Below, one piece after another: positions 28,323 to 32,275 of a DNA stretch of 64,000 bases. Position numbers and translations under genes: made by a program. The DNA is from Sphingomonadaceae bacterium (GTDB lineage: Bacteria > Pseudomonadota > Alphaproteobacteria > Sphingomonadales > Sphingomonadaceae). How positions within the stretch are numbered: the stretch's first letter is position 1; each line of letters begins with the position of its first letter. A model generated the notes under the pieces. That model was not told the origin of the DNA. It made no database searches and saw only the letters and a list, made by a program, of their open reading frames with translations. The DNA lies in contig JAJTEF010000006.1 in assembly GCA_021300355.1 (NCBI GenBank), positions 1 to 64,000 of the forward strand. The letters are read 5' to 3'.

Positions 28323-29696
28323 TTATTTGCTCATGGACAGCCGGCTCATCAGAATTGCTGCGCGCTTTGCCTGCCGTTTGATGCTCGCAAGGTCGACTGT
28401 CTCCCCGGGGGCGTGGTCACCTTTGCTATAGACGCCAAGGCCGACGAGACCGTCGACGTCATTGGCGACGAAGCTGATGTCTCCTGCGCCACGTTTCAAC
28501 GGGTTGAGCGGCGGTTGGGCATCCAGTCCCAGATCCCGGTTTACAACATTCAGTTGCGCCAACAACGCCTTGTTGCCCTCTGTTGGCGCCATCAAATCCT
28601 GATTCACAAGATTGAGTTGCGCCAATAATGCTTTGTTACCCTCCGTCGGTGCCATGGCGGGATAGCCGCCGGGGTCAAAGCTAATCTTGGCGCTGGTCTT
28701 TGGTGCAGATGCCGACACGATGGCCTGCATCTTCTGCCGGACCCGCGCACTTTGGTCTTCGGATAAGGTCCGGAAGTCACCGCGCGCGATGGCTATGCCG
28801 GGAATGATGTTGGTCTTCCCCTTGGCACTTGCGCGGACGCCGTCATTATCAAACGTTGCCTCTTGCCCCGCGGCAATCAAACCGACGTTGAACGTCAGAT
28901 TTGGTTCAGGCAGCTCGGTGCGGAATTGATGAATGATGCGCGCCAGTTCAAACGCTGCGCCATCGCCATAAGTGGAATCAAAGATCAGCGAGCTATGCCC
29001 GGTGACGCCGGAAACCTCTAACTTCCAACTATTCGACGACCGGCGCGCGATAACGCCCATGTCCTTGCCATCCTCAATCGACAGTCCTTCGAAATCGAGC
29101 GCGACATCTGCAGTCTTGCCGGCGGCAATCAACGGCGCGCGGGTAATCTCGATTGGGTCGCCTGCGTCCTCTTCATCGCCTGTCATATGAATTTCTATAT
29201 GCGCGTCCTTCAGCGTGCCTGCCGCTTGCATGGCGCGCAAAGCAGACACGATCACGACCATGCCACCCTTGTCGTCACCTGCGCCCGGCCCAACGGCTTC
29301 ATCACCGTTGCGGACGAATTTCTGGAATGGGCTATCGGCTTCAAAAACGGTGTCGAGATGCGCAATCAGTAAAAGCTTCTTTGTGTCCTTCTTGCCGGTC
29401 ATTGTTGCGACCAGATGCCCCGAGCGTCCAGCCTTGGCCATATCCAGCCATGCCACCTTGAACCCAAGCGGTTCGAGCTCAGCGCGCATCATATCGCCGA
29501 CGGTTTTGACACCAGCGAAGTTCATCGTTCCCGAATTTTGGTTAACCATCCGCTCAAGCAAGGCAACCGAGCGTTCATACTCCGCGTCAACGGTTGCGGC
29601 CATCTTGGCTTCGGGCTTTGAAAGCTGGGCAAACGCCGGCGTTGAAAGCGCCAAGAGCGCAACGCTGCTCATCAAAGACAGGGCTTGGAATTTCAT
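28323..29696 (-). CDS. M20-family zinc metallopeptidase, exported, with internal duplication
   Basis: A 457-residue protein with a signal peptide (LMSSVALLALSTPAFAQ, cleavage near 23). Metal ligands are HLDTVFE, GAGDDKGG and TGDEEDAGDP, and a C-terminal SFVANDVDGL histidine region is replaced by a less clear ending. The family includes carboxypeptidase G2-like hydrolases that release terminal glutamate or act on peptides. Residues near 348-389 carry a 21-residue segment repeated in tandem (MAPTEGNKALLAQLN.VN.DL twice). The gene ends at a bidirectional terminator and its downstream 3' flank faces the tonB operon. Confidence 0.88.
   Translation of the reverse strand: MKFQALSLMSSVALLALSTPAFAQLSKPEAKMAATVDAEYERSVALLERMVNQNSGTMNFAGVKTVGDMMRAELEPLGFKVAWLDMAKAGRSGHLVATMTGKKDTKKLLLIAHLDTVFEADSPFQKFVRNGDEAVGPGAGDDKGGMVVIVSALRAMQAAGTLKDAHIEIHMTGDEEDAGDPIEITRAPLIAAGKTADVALDFEGLSIEDGKDMGVIARRSSNSWKLEVSGVTGHSSLIFDSTYGDGAAFELARIIHQFRTELPEPNLTFNVGLIAAGQEATFDNDGVRASAKGKTNIIPGIAIARGDFRTLSEDQSARVRQKMQAIVSASAPKTSAKISFDPGGYPAMAPTEGNKALLAQLNLVNQDLMAPTEGNKALLAQLNVVNRDLGLDAQPPLNPLKRGAGDISFVANDVDGLVGLGVYSKGDHAPGETVDLASIKRQAKRAAILMSRLSMSK
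28530..28655 (-). repeat. Tandem duplication of 63 bp inside the M20 peptidase gene
   Basis: Units 28593-28655 and 28530-28592 each encode the 21-residue pattern starting MAPTEGNKALLAQ. The protein copies differ at only a few positions while synonymous bases differ often, so the repeat is in frame and not freshly copied. Confidence 0.9.
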
Positions 29697-29768: not shown

Positions 29769-30677
29769 TTATGCGGCCGGCTTTTTCGCGAGGATGTGTT
29801 CGAGAATGAAATGCGGCACCGTCAGCGTTGATATCAGAATAAATGCAGACCGGACGATGCCCATGTCCGAAGGGACGTCGCCTTGGCACAGGAACATCAA
29901 GACGCCTAACCCCAAAGAAAGCGCGGACACGGCGGCCACAATGGCTGCCTTTTTCAATTTAGACAGGCCGCCCGTTTCGCGCAGCGCGTCCGCCATATGT
30001 CGCGGCGAGTGCAGCCCGCAAAAGAAAACGGCAAATGCCACGAGCGGCGGCAGGAACAAGGCGGCTGTGATACAGGCCAGCACTTCAAGCGCGCTTTGCG
30101 TGTCATCATGCCGGAACGCCCAATAGGCAAAGACAAGGCTGCCCAGCGCAGCAGGGACTGATGCCGCGCCAAGCAGCGCGGCGATCACTGCGCCGTTTTG
30201 GCTACCCGTTAGCGCGGCGAATATCATGGCGACATCGTCGGGGCTGGCCAGCGCAGGCAGGGCGACCAATGCCCACCCAACCATCATGGCTAGAAACGGA
30301 TCTACGCCACCACGCCAATCACGGCTGAAATGCACAATTGAGATGAGCAGGAATGAAATGAGCGCAAGTTCCGGAAGCTGGAGCCATAAGACGACCATAG
30401 CGGCGGCGCATCCCACATAGCTGCCAATTATCTTCATCCTGCCCGCCACCCCATTCTGCCCAAAATGGGCAGCAGCGATTTCGACGTCCAGCGTGCCGTG
30501 GGGAATGCCTGCAATCACGATGGCCGCAGCAGCCAGCATATTGGCCTCAACGCTGTCCATGCCGCCCAGAAGGCGGTCTACGGCAATAAGCAGCAACGTT
30601 GCTGCCGGTAACGCAAACAGGCGCAACATTTTAGAAAATGTCGCGCCTGCAGAATGCGGATATAAAATTATATTCAT
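29769..30677 (-). CDS. blh: Brp/Blh-type beta-carotene 15,15'-dioxygenase
   Basis: A 302-residue integral membrane enzyme that cleaves beta-carotene to two retinal molecules. Metal-binding histidines are visible in GIPHGTLDVEIA (H60), VHFSRD (H116) and GLHSPRHM (H223, H227). There are about eight hydrophobic helices. It starts 52 bases after the rhodopsin stop, in the same direction, and so supplies its chromophore. A 9-bp hairpin in the gap may lower its translation. The ribosome site is weak. Confidence 0.93.
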   Translation of the reverse strand: MNIILYPHSAGATFSKMLRLFALPAATLLLIAVDRLLGGMDSVEANMLAAAAIVIAGIPHGTLDVEIAAAHFGQNGVAGRMKIIGSYVGCAAAMVVLWLQLPELALISFLLISIVHFSRDWRGGVDPFLAMMVGWALVALPALASPDDVAMIFAALTGSQNGAVIAALLGAASVPAALGSLVFAYWAFRHDDTQSALEVLACITAALFLPPLVAFAVFFCGLHSPRHMADALRETGGLSKLKKAAIVAAVSALSLGLGVLMFLCQGDVPSDMGIVRSAFILISTLTVPHFILEHILAKKPAA

Positions 30678-30685
30678 ACAGGAAT

Positions 30686-30707
30686 GTACGCCGCCATAGC
30701 GGCGTAC
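30686..30707 (-). promoter_or_regulatory. Perfect 9-bp hairpin between rhodopsin and blh
   Basis: GTACGCCGC and GCGGCGTAC pair across a 4-base loop. The base of the stem lies about 9 bases before the blh start codon, in the place where the ribosome site should be. There is no T-run after it, so attenuation or mRNA protection fits better than termination. Confidence 0.6.
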
Positions 30708-30729
30708 GTCCAGTGTTTATCCGAAGGAC

Positions 30730-31476
30730 TTAGCCATATTCGGCTTGCGACTTGCGCACGGCGATCATGTAGATCAAGACGCCGACGCCTGCCTTTGCGA
30801 TCAAGTCAGCGATTGTGTAGCCGACTTGTACGCCAACGGTTACGTCAGAACCGCTCAGATTGGTGTACGGGATCATGTATACGATCGGGTAGAAACCCCA
30901 TGATGCGAAGGTCAGCAAGCGTGCCTTCTTCACCAGTTCACGTACATTTTCAGGCTGGTTGTTGATCGATGCACCGAGGCCGGCGAACAACTGCCACATG
31001 ATGTAGACAAATGGGATTGCCGACAATGTGCCCCACAAAACGCGGGTCGGAATGTCCGTTGCGATTTCACCTGGGTAGCCCAAAATGATCATCAATGCAG
31101 CGGCGCCGCCAAGCTTGAACGACTTCGAGACAGTTTCTTCTTGGCTCAGACGCATCACGAGGATGAGTTCGATGAGAAGCAATGGCACGGTCAACAACCA
31201 ATCGACATAGCGATAGGCATCGTTAAACGCATAGCCGCTTGCGGCCACGATTCCGCCTTCAACGGTATATGCGCCTTCCCAGCTTTCGAAAATACGGAAA
31301 TAGTGATACGCGGCAATGGCGGTAACCAAGCCGGAAATGGTGAGCGCTGTCTTGTAGGCTGGGCCCACTTGCGAGCGGCCGAGCCACAAAAACAGCGTTG
31401 CTGCTGCCATGGTGGCAAATGTAAATGAGAATGCATTATAGACCAGGGAATACTGGCCAAAAGTTAGATTTTCCAC
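30730..31476 (-). CDS. Green-tuned proton-pumping microbial rhodopsin (proteorhodopsin/xanthorhodopsin-like)
   Basis: A 248-residue, seven-helix retinal protein in the inner membrane. Helix C YRYVDWLLTVPLLLIEL gives acceptor D92, T96 and donor E103, the DTE motif of outward proton pumps. L100 at the colour-tuning position predicts green absorption. The counterion-coupled histidine is H58 (AYHYF). The retinal lysine is K228 (ADLIAKAG). The helix E residue matching the carotenoid-fenestration glycine is G149 (RVLWGTLS). The start is GTG with GGAG six bases upstream. It heads a unit with blh and is divergent from the LOV regulator. Not predicted to be a sensory type (no transducer gene). Confidence 0.95.
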   Translation of the reverse strand: MENLTFGQYSLVYNAFSFTFATMAAATLFLWLGRSQVGPAYKTALTISGLVTAIAAYHYFRIFESWEGAYTVEGGIVAASGYAFNDAYRYVDWLLTVPLLLIELILVMRLSQEETVSKSFKLGGAAALMIILGYPGEIATDIPTRVLWGTLSAIPFVYIMWQLFAGLGASINNQPENVRELVKKARLLTFASWGFYPIVYMIPYTNLSGSDVTVGVQVGYTIADLIAKAGVGVLIYMIAVRKSQAEYG

Positions 31477-31493
31477 GTTACTCTCCCCCTTTG

Positions 31494-31513
31494 CGACATC
31501 ATTTCGGATGTCG
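31494..31513. promoter_or_regulatory. Inverted repeat CGACATC-N6-GATGTCG upstream of rhodopsin
   Basis: Two 7-base arms in the rhodopsin leader, 18-37 bases before its GTG. It could bind a dimeric HTH regulator or fold as RNA. See the third half-site at 31586-31592. Confidence 0.55.
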
Positions 31514-31585
31514 GGGGCTTTTTCATAAACGCTGACCTGGGGACAACAACCTAACCTTTATACCATGTTTTTGTGATATTGCCCT

Positions 31586-31592
31586 CGACATC
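31586..31592. promoter_or_regulatory. Third CGACATC half-site abutting a candidate rhodopsin promoter
   Basis: On the minus strand GATGTCG directly precedes a poor -35 (AGGGCA, 31585-31580). A TATAAA -10 follows at 31562-31557 with 17-base spacing. This is the position of a class II activator site. Confidence 0.35.
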
Positions 31593-31633
31593 GCAGAACT
31601 GGCATATATAGTGGTTAACTCTGAAATGCCCCT

Positions 31634-32275
31634 ATGGGGGTACGCGGGAGGCACTGTAATTTGGACGTTTTGGGCCGCTCTAACGAGAAACTAGACGCGC
31701 TAATCGCGAATAGCCCGATAGCGTCAGTGATCAGCGACCCGCGTCAAAGCGGCAATCCAATCATTGCCTGTAATGCTGCGTTTCTTGAACTGACGGGCTA
31801 TGCGGAACATGAAATCATTGGGCGGAACTGCAAATTTTTGGCCGGTCCAGAGACTGAACCGTGGTTAACCGACACGATCAGCAATGGCGTTCAACGTCAC
31901 GCCCCGGTCATGGTCGAAATTCTGAACTACAAACGCGATGGCACACCCTTTCGTAATGCAGTGCTGGTCGCGCCGTTGTTTGACGAAGAAGGTGAACTTG
32001 AGTTCTTTCTTGGTTCTCAGGTCGAACTTGAGCCCAGTGCGCCAGCGTCTTACGAGAGCCGTCATGCCGCGGCCGCGGCGGCGGTGAAGGCATTGTCACG
32101 GCGGCAGCGCGAAGTGTTGGCCGAAATGGCGCTGGGCCATTTGAACAAGCAAATCGCGTTCCGGCTTGGGCTCAGCGAACAAACCGTCAAAATGCACCGT
32201 GCGTTGTTAATGGAGCGGTTGGGCGCGGCGAGTTCGGCCGATGCTATTCGCATTGCAGTAGAGGCCGGGCTTTAA
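31634..32275 (+). CDS. Short LOV-HTH (LuxR) blue-light transcription regulator, EL222-like
   Basis: A 213-residue protein. The LOV domain spans about 20-132; [12 protein letters not shown] has the photoactive cysteine at C66, [13 protein letters not shown] binds flavin and FFLGSQVEL carries the signalling Gln at 129. A short linker leads to a LuxR/FixJ HTH (151-213, [43 protein letters not shown]). Blue light would form a cysteinyl-flavin adduct and release the HTH. It is divergent from the rhodopsin-blh unit with 157 bases between. The ATG at 31634 has no clear ribosome site; a TTG at 31661 has GGGAGG 9 bases upstream. Confidence 0.93.

Follow-up and report, generated by a model that had tools for sequence, protein, structure and literature searches.

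Why should the gene for a predicted light-driven pump stand back to back with that for a putative blue-light receptor carrying its own DNA-binding domain? The question is raised by a 64,000-nucleotide stretch from the genome of a freshwater bacterium of the Sphingomonadaceae (assembly GCA_021300355.1, contig JAJTEF010000006.1, positions 1 to 64,000; hereafter the window), in which a xanthorhodopsin-type gene (XR) and blh, encoding a retinal-making enzyme, are divergent from the gene for an EL222-like LOV protein with a helix-turn-helix (HTH) domain. Our answer is that the unit is probably a blue-light-switched phototrophy module, in which a LOV-HTH dimer would bind an operator and activate XR-blh; from the sequence comparisons below we put the probability of this reading at about 0.83.

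By homology to EL222, which must be dimerised by blue light before it can bind its target (PMC4844311; statements taken from published work come from excerpts of the papers cited), light would form a flavin-cysteine adduct in the window's LOV-HTH protein and free its HTH domain. The freed dimer would bind the operator at 31548-31567, beside a weak -35 element of the XR-blh promoter, and, once bound, recruit RNA polymerase; XR and the retinal-making enzyme would then be produced only when usable light is present. Light-induced activation is the likeliest mode of control because the residues of EL222 are kept and the site lies at an activator position. The preliminary description of this locus had the LOV protein controlling the pump: the pairing, the site and the change of the site upon regulator loss speak for such control, while light control itself, together with light-dependent binding by the window's protein, activation as its direction and any autoregulation, is what we infer.

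Regulator linkage and EL222-type sites at xanthorhodopsin genes

A near-full-length LOV-HTH gene was found within the fetched flanks (up to 6 kb) of 48 of 80 named XR loci, which are the best 80 of 413 XR relatives and lean towards the window's kin. With further genomes included, 53 distinct XR-linked regulators were obtained, spanning Sphingomonadales and Caulobacteraceae (the contig of L047 is labelled Rhizobiales; its regulator groups among Brevundimonas ones). Thirteen are divergent from XR, 38 codirectional upstream, one codirectional downstream (L074) and one downstream on the opposite strand (L067). The pair therefore recurs, and uniqueness to this strain, which the preliminary description had named as the outcome that would tell against it, is excluded.

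Across the order, 396 genomes were sampled. Defined by E below 1e-99, XR occurs in 20 of them, all from the window's family, and the regulator adjoins it in ten. Of these 20, 19 have an EL222-like gene of full length (E no higher than ~1e-43), versus 91 of 374 others (kinship not corrected); genomes with only distant rhodopsin matches were counted as XR-less, and two from another family, whose relatives reach 58-59%, were left out of the comparison. Within the window's genus, 27 of 45 genomes have XR, regulators of the XR-linked type, at 75-100% identity, occur in 12 and always stand divergent beside XR, and 40 of 45 have a relative of 49-59% identity, with or without XR.

On an unrooted LOV tree of 79 rows, one per distinct LOV sequence, XR-linked regulators occupy four places, and well-supported branches force at least four linkage changes. 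EL222 itself groups with XR-linked L069 and L099, its nearest relatives on the tree (support 100/96). Chance adjacency is ruled out by recurrence across several genera in four arrangements, and simple inherited synteny is insufficient given the linkage changes; linkage may have been gained repeatedly, or once with later rearrangements and losses.

EL222 recognises the consensus RGNCYWWRGNCY and has a high-affinity operator, C120 (PMC10521638). In the 250 nt upstream of XR, with expectations taken from dinucleotide shuffles and duplicates with identical upstreams removed, exact consensus sites stand at 15 of the 53 LOV-linked loci, against 0.79 expected, and at none of 36 others (0.54 expected). 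Most of these sites sit in one longer dyad, near ATACGGCC-TAAA-GGCCGTAT. A matrix built from nine exact sites, again after removal of such duplicates, detected sites at P ≤ 0.02 in 27 of the 44 linked loci held out, all 27 of them among the 31 outside the window's clade; the 17 misses are all 13 window-clade loci plus L050, L056, L063 and L093. Among the 36 usable XR loci that lack a linked regulator, 13 also have matrix sites at the same threshold. The figure of 36 excludes L023, which like L002 starts at or inside XR and is without usable upstream; the dropped rows further include L158 and L159, from another XR clade, and L160, with unrelated sequence before XR.

The placement of these sites is regular. 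Of 36 linked loci outside the clade, 27 have a -10-like TA 32 nt past the dyad centre, whereas no other offset between 12 and 45 has one in more than 2. Class II activators of the LuxR/NarL type sit near -44, and the distance from operator to -10 is as expected for them. When 16 whole genomes were searched with up to two mismatches, ten contained matches, and all ten sites with at most one mismatch lie at XR; of the two-mismatch hits, one is the reverse reading of an XR site and one lies elsewhere. A reversed control pattern gave seven hits at up to two mismatches in the same genomes.

At Novosphingopyxis locus L067, where the LOV-HTH gene lies downstream of blh and is long-branched, an altered dyad, CTACCCCCAAAAGGGGGTATTG, precedes XR; regulator and site may have changed together.

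In the window, the proposed operator CATGGTATAAAGGTTAGGTT (in XR sense; 31548-31567, minus strand) matches the reverse complement of C120 at 14 of 20 bases, a likeness reached by 0 of 200 shuffles, and it is the single match at up to three mismatches in the window's genome. The TA of the -10-like element lies 31 nt after the centre of this box, as it does in 19 of 20 clade loci; the remaining one, L012, was mis-anchored on a wrong GGTTG in the distance alignment.

The clade also shows what accompanies loss of the regulator. Among its 23 distinct XR loci, counted after removal of identical-upstream duplicates, 13 have an intact divergent regulator and ten do not, with remnants at the divergent place in seven of the ten (that of L012 is weak, E 3e-3). 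A CATGG half-site is present at 12 of the 13 intact loci and at 0 of the 10 that lost the regulator (kinship not corrected), and the -35 place of XR reads TTGACA in 10 of 10 lost versus 3 of 13 intact loci. Because of this last distribution, we infer that a stronger core promoter arose first and made the regulator dispensable. Intact L011 stands beside regulator-less L006 on both the XR and glnA trees (support 99/94 and 95/93), and intact L086 with regulator-less L005 and L016 on the glnA tree alone (100/99); the XR tree of the clade is poorly resolved. If a decayed gene cannot return, the glnA tree would imply at least three separate losses. No XR match in the window's genus has an inner stop, some matches being cut by contig ends, and regulator losses beside retained pumps suggest ways in which phototrophy may come under control or escape it.

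Decaying LOV-HTH remnants were seen beside XR in L005, L006, L008/L085, L012, L015, L016 and L161, all with a TTGACA -35.

Objections and alternative readings

Several observations weigh against control of XR-blh by the linked regulator. The box in the window departs from the 12-bp consensus in IUPAC code at two positions, a score equalled in 86 of 100 shuffles, and with the nine-site matrix it is not significant (P 0.107). For these reasons the site of the window's clade, judged by its sequence, is a variant of the EL222-type site, and the case for the window's box is made on its similarity to C120 and on the clade pattern. In that pattern, the CATGG half-site was picked after the alignment had been viewed; identity of the whole box to C120 separates intact from lost loci less strongly (P 0.005, kinship not corrected), and L018 and L020 combine intact regulators with poor boxes. 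The four linked loci outside the clade that the matrix missed lack a site, and the 13 unlinked XR loci that have one show no TA peak at a fixed distance. In the 396-genome sample, TACGGCMYAARGNCCGTAT with up to one mismatch gave 17 sites versus 23 for the reversed control; the pattern is thus not commoner than its control, and it stands out by its placement alone. Nor is the pairing obligate, 10 of the 23 distinct clade loci being without an intact linked regulator. Finally, XR of Sphingomonas AAP5 was silent under the conditions of a 2020 study, light phases included (PMC7762795).

Since that gene was silent even in the light phases, light alone was not enough there. A 2022 PNAS study is said to have found that production of AAP5 XR required both light and a temperature below 16 °C, and the two results are compatible with light being necessary and not sufficient. 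Control by a blue-light switch is a possible reason for xanthorhodopsin silence in laboratory culture.

The alternative that survives best, although we consider it unlikely, is that the operator is mainly bound by another EL222-like protein, the linked gene being redundant or serving for fine-tuning. A candidate exists in the window's own genome, where a second EL222-like gene (G000:C56:8164-8739) shares 55% identity with the regulator, and the 49-59% copies across the genus, as well as the sites retained at XR loci without a linked regulator, fit the same idea. However, the clade box changes upon loss of the linked copy although nine of the ten genomes concerned retain the paralogue (none was detected in the tenth, G423). 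A search for an operator 3' of the stop of the second copy (L262) found none.

Still less probable is repression of XR by the linked LOV-HTH protein under blue light, or a role of this protein in control of its own gene only. EL222 has been used as a repressor where its site overlaps the promoter core (PMC10521638), and the window's operator lies upstream of the LOV gene as well as of XR. Against this, in the 27 of 36 linked loci noted above the site leaves the -10 element free and falls ~44 nt ahead of the presumed start. At codirectional loci the site, when present, comes behind the stop of the LOV gene and is followed by XR and, in most cases, blh. In the region before the LOV gene of 41 codirectional loci, C120-type matches reached P ≤ 0.05 only in L032 and L056.

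We give hardly any credence to the proposal by Kopejtka et al. (2020) that XR is itself the light sensor, working with a neighbouring 'histidine kinase': gene adjacency and silent XR expression in AAP5 favour it (PMC7762795), but GerE was found in all 53 XR-linked segments scanned and kinase families in none (two S. glacialis segments included, AAP5's own gene outside the set), the frame stops directly after the HTH domain at the six loci checked (both S. glacialis included; 228-304 codons in total), and the window's XR retains its proton acceptor, proton donor and retinal lysine.

Genes and promoter elements of the window

The LOV-HTH gene was assigned to 31661-32275 on the plus strand (204 aa), most likely from a TTG start at 31661, judging by alignment; its open frame extends back to an ATG at 31634. 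That ATG is not conserved (ATT in L003, GAC in L004), and L013 and L019 have in-frame stops between its position and the conserved start. All 13 sequences compared, the window's included, have TTG, GTG or ATG at codon 10, and in most of the 13 a GGAGG-like site precedes it. With the ATG unconserved and codon 10 always a start codon, the intergenic region is most likely 31477-31660, or 184 bp; the shared divergent region of the preliminary description stands, whereas its length of 157 bases probably does not.

Along its whole length the regulator matches only the Pfam families PAS_9 (PAS/LOV) and GerE, and its best PDB relative is EL222 (8a5r, E 8.9e-73). Its LOV motif reads GRNCKFL, and GRNC[RK]FL is found in 50 of 53 XR-linked homologues. 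Cys66, N98, N108, Q129, T184, H188 and R189 are invariant in 53 of 53 aligned homologues; we take Cys66, numbered from the ATG at 31634, to be the photoactive cysteine and N98, N108 and Q129 to be flavin-contact residues. By analogy with EL222, blue light would induce dimerisation and DNA binding of this protein.

XR (30730-31476, minus strand, GTG start, 248 aa) matches Pfam Bac_rhodopsin (PF01036, E 6.5e-40), and its top PDB relatives are psXR (9wfa), Gloeobacter rhodopsin (6nwd) and xanthorhodopsin (3ddl). The protein has D92, T96, Leu99/100, E103, G149 and K228, keeping the proton acceptor (D92), the donor (E103) and the retinal lysine (K228), which points to a light-driven proton pump of the xanthorhodopsin type. 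It is predicted to absorb green light because D92, T96, Leu99/100, E103 and K228 are as in the XR of AAP5, whose absorption lies at 544 nm (PMC7762795). An LWG motif is common to the window's protein and 3ddl in their alignment. From that alignment we take G149 to be the equivalent of xanthorhodopsin G156, the glycine that opens the carotenoid-antenna site; since this glycine is present, the pump may be able to use blue light as well, through a carotenoid antenna.

The blh gene (29769-30677, minus strand, 302 aa) encodes a beta-carotene 15,15'-dioxygenase, with PF15461 at E 2.8e-38 and a TIGR03753 score of 155.7 bits against a curated cut-off of 95.25. A rhodopsin-blh pair divergent from a LOV-LuxR gene had been proposed at the outset, and the domain, TIGR03753 and PDB matches agree with it. 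The window's genome (assembly size 2.18 Mb) also encodes a lycopene cyclase for the retinal route (E 7.0e-84) and contains no match to the reaction-centre family PF00124. Among the best 80 of 413 XR relatives, the closest genus-named loci belong to Sphingorhabdus.

Between the two transcription units we read a -35-like TTGTTG of XR (31544-31549, minus strand), which abuts the operator, and, 16 nt after it, a -10-like TATGAA (31522-31527, minus strand). A promoter-like TCGACA-16-TATAGT precedes the LOV-HTH gene (31585-31612, plus strand), a weak candidate given that one was found and 0.6 were expected in shuffles. Just before its Shine-Dalgarno site the XR 5' leader carries a six-pair hairpin (31495-31512, minus strand), and at five of its pairs both partners differ in one or more of 20 sequences (the window and 19 relatives); a role in temperature or translation control is conceivable. 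Rfam gave one match on the window's promoter, far below the gathering score.

The M20 peptidase gene (28323-29696, minus strand) contains an in-frame tandem repeat of ~21 codons (MAPTEGNKALLAQLN...). The alignment to L002, whose XR is identical, falls 63 nt short, and the repeat may stem from misassembly. Two rhodopsin genes in tandem, ~35% and 58% identical to the query, were seen in a different family of the order, at G066:C20:1841-3326 and G115:C68:3741-5227.

EL222-like genes away from xanthorhodopsin and known systems

Ten of the 17 TACGGCMYAARGNCCGTAT sites in the order sample lie 10-40 nt behind an EL222-like gene; XR comes next in G344, G339, G295 and G183, and does not in G254, G356, G320, G120, G242 or at the second copy of G391. 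We drew 60 XR-unlinked regulators (L206-L265), mostly from the top matches, six having been picked for an already-known site. With a score cut-off (11) set after earlier scores had been seen, a site lies within 66 nt after the gene's own stop in 28 of the 60, or in 22 of 54 without the six preselected. As background, 3326 windows drawn at random from these loci gave 9 sites, and the reverse orientation gave 3 of 60. Nine of the next proteins were scanned: three are fasciclin-like (L239, L241, L242), four resemble flavin adenine dinucleotide (FAD) amine oxidases (L210, L211, L222, L248) and two are without a Pfam family.

At 17 of these loci a hairpin-like stretch was seen, which would form a candidate small RNA behind the operator, in which a stem (GCATCG..CGATGC) closes C-rich loops resembling the anti-Shine-Dalgarno sequence. 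Fifteen loci were aligned (L226, L212, L213, L217, L222, L223, L227, L228, L248, L251, L206, L207, L240, L243 and L259) over ~30-215 nt after the LOV stop, and six of the nine pairs show changes on both sides. Rfam at the gathering threshold, run on 20 loci around XR-unlinked regulators, found only a transfer RNA and nothing at the hairpin.

It is thus fairly probable, if less so than control of the window's pump, that an EL222-type gene with its own operator a few dozen bases past the stop forms a portable blue-light switch driving the next gene. Its load would often be XR-blh (Sphingomonadales, Caulobacteraceae) and elsewhere a fasciclin-like gene, a FAD amine-oxidase-like gene or the candidate small RNA, and the window would represent an inverted, divergent form. 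The pump would have escaped control in several lineages of the clade: at all ten regulator-less loci the -35 matches the consensus and the box has changed.

EL222, from Erythrobacter litoralis HTCC2594, is the closest parallel: like the window's regulator it is a one-component LOV-HTH (GerE) protein with the same LOV cysteine, and the two share the recognition-helix core TVKMHR and sites of the same type, but a window-type gene adjoins a pump gene with a conserved site. EL222 is known mainly as an optogenetic tool, and we know of no established physiological target. The loci described here would give the family of this widely used gene switch a natural target, promoters and testable sites. Natural and artificial DNA substrates of EL222 were the subject of a 2012 paper.

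In titles and abstract openings, subscription papers and preprints lying outside the scope, we found no LOV-HTH protein described as regulating a rhodopsin gene, in line with the earlier view that the pairing was undescribed; the adjacency itself, however, was printed in 2020 for AAP5, where XR-blh lies beside a 'blue-light-activated histidine kinase' (PMC7762795). That cluster holds the same three genes by description and is syntenic in some Sphingomonas; the gene is called a kinase there, XR is proposed as sensor, and the parts of the study consulted contain no operator (PMC7762795). The PDB entry of EL222, 3p7n, is itself titled 'Sensor histidine kinase', and one-component control offers an alternative to the sensor-plus-kinase reading of the AAP5 cluster. 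In S. glacialis (L048, L071) the genes are codirectional, unlike the divergent window, and the LOV-HTH frames end directly after the HTH domain.

Haloarchaea carry the gene order bop-brp-bat, brp being a relative of blh. Bat is likewise a PAS-containing HTH regulator and mediates bacteriorhodopsin production, but it is archaeal, has further domains and lacks the LOV cysteine (PMC4844311); its PAS-GAF-HTH architecture is not that of the window's regulator, in which the Pfam scan found no GAF. LdaP of Dinoroseobacter shibae, an antirepressor of PpsR, is likewise a blue-light LOV protein controlling phototrophy genes (cited in PMC11406998), but it acts via PpsR on the photosynthesis gene cluster and not on a rhodopsin promoter. 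In Gloeobacter, too, a pump is linked to an HTH transcription factor (PMC11217422); there the rhodopsin acts on the regulator, whereas for the window we propose the reverse direction, from regulator to rhodopsin gene.

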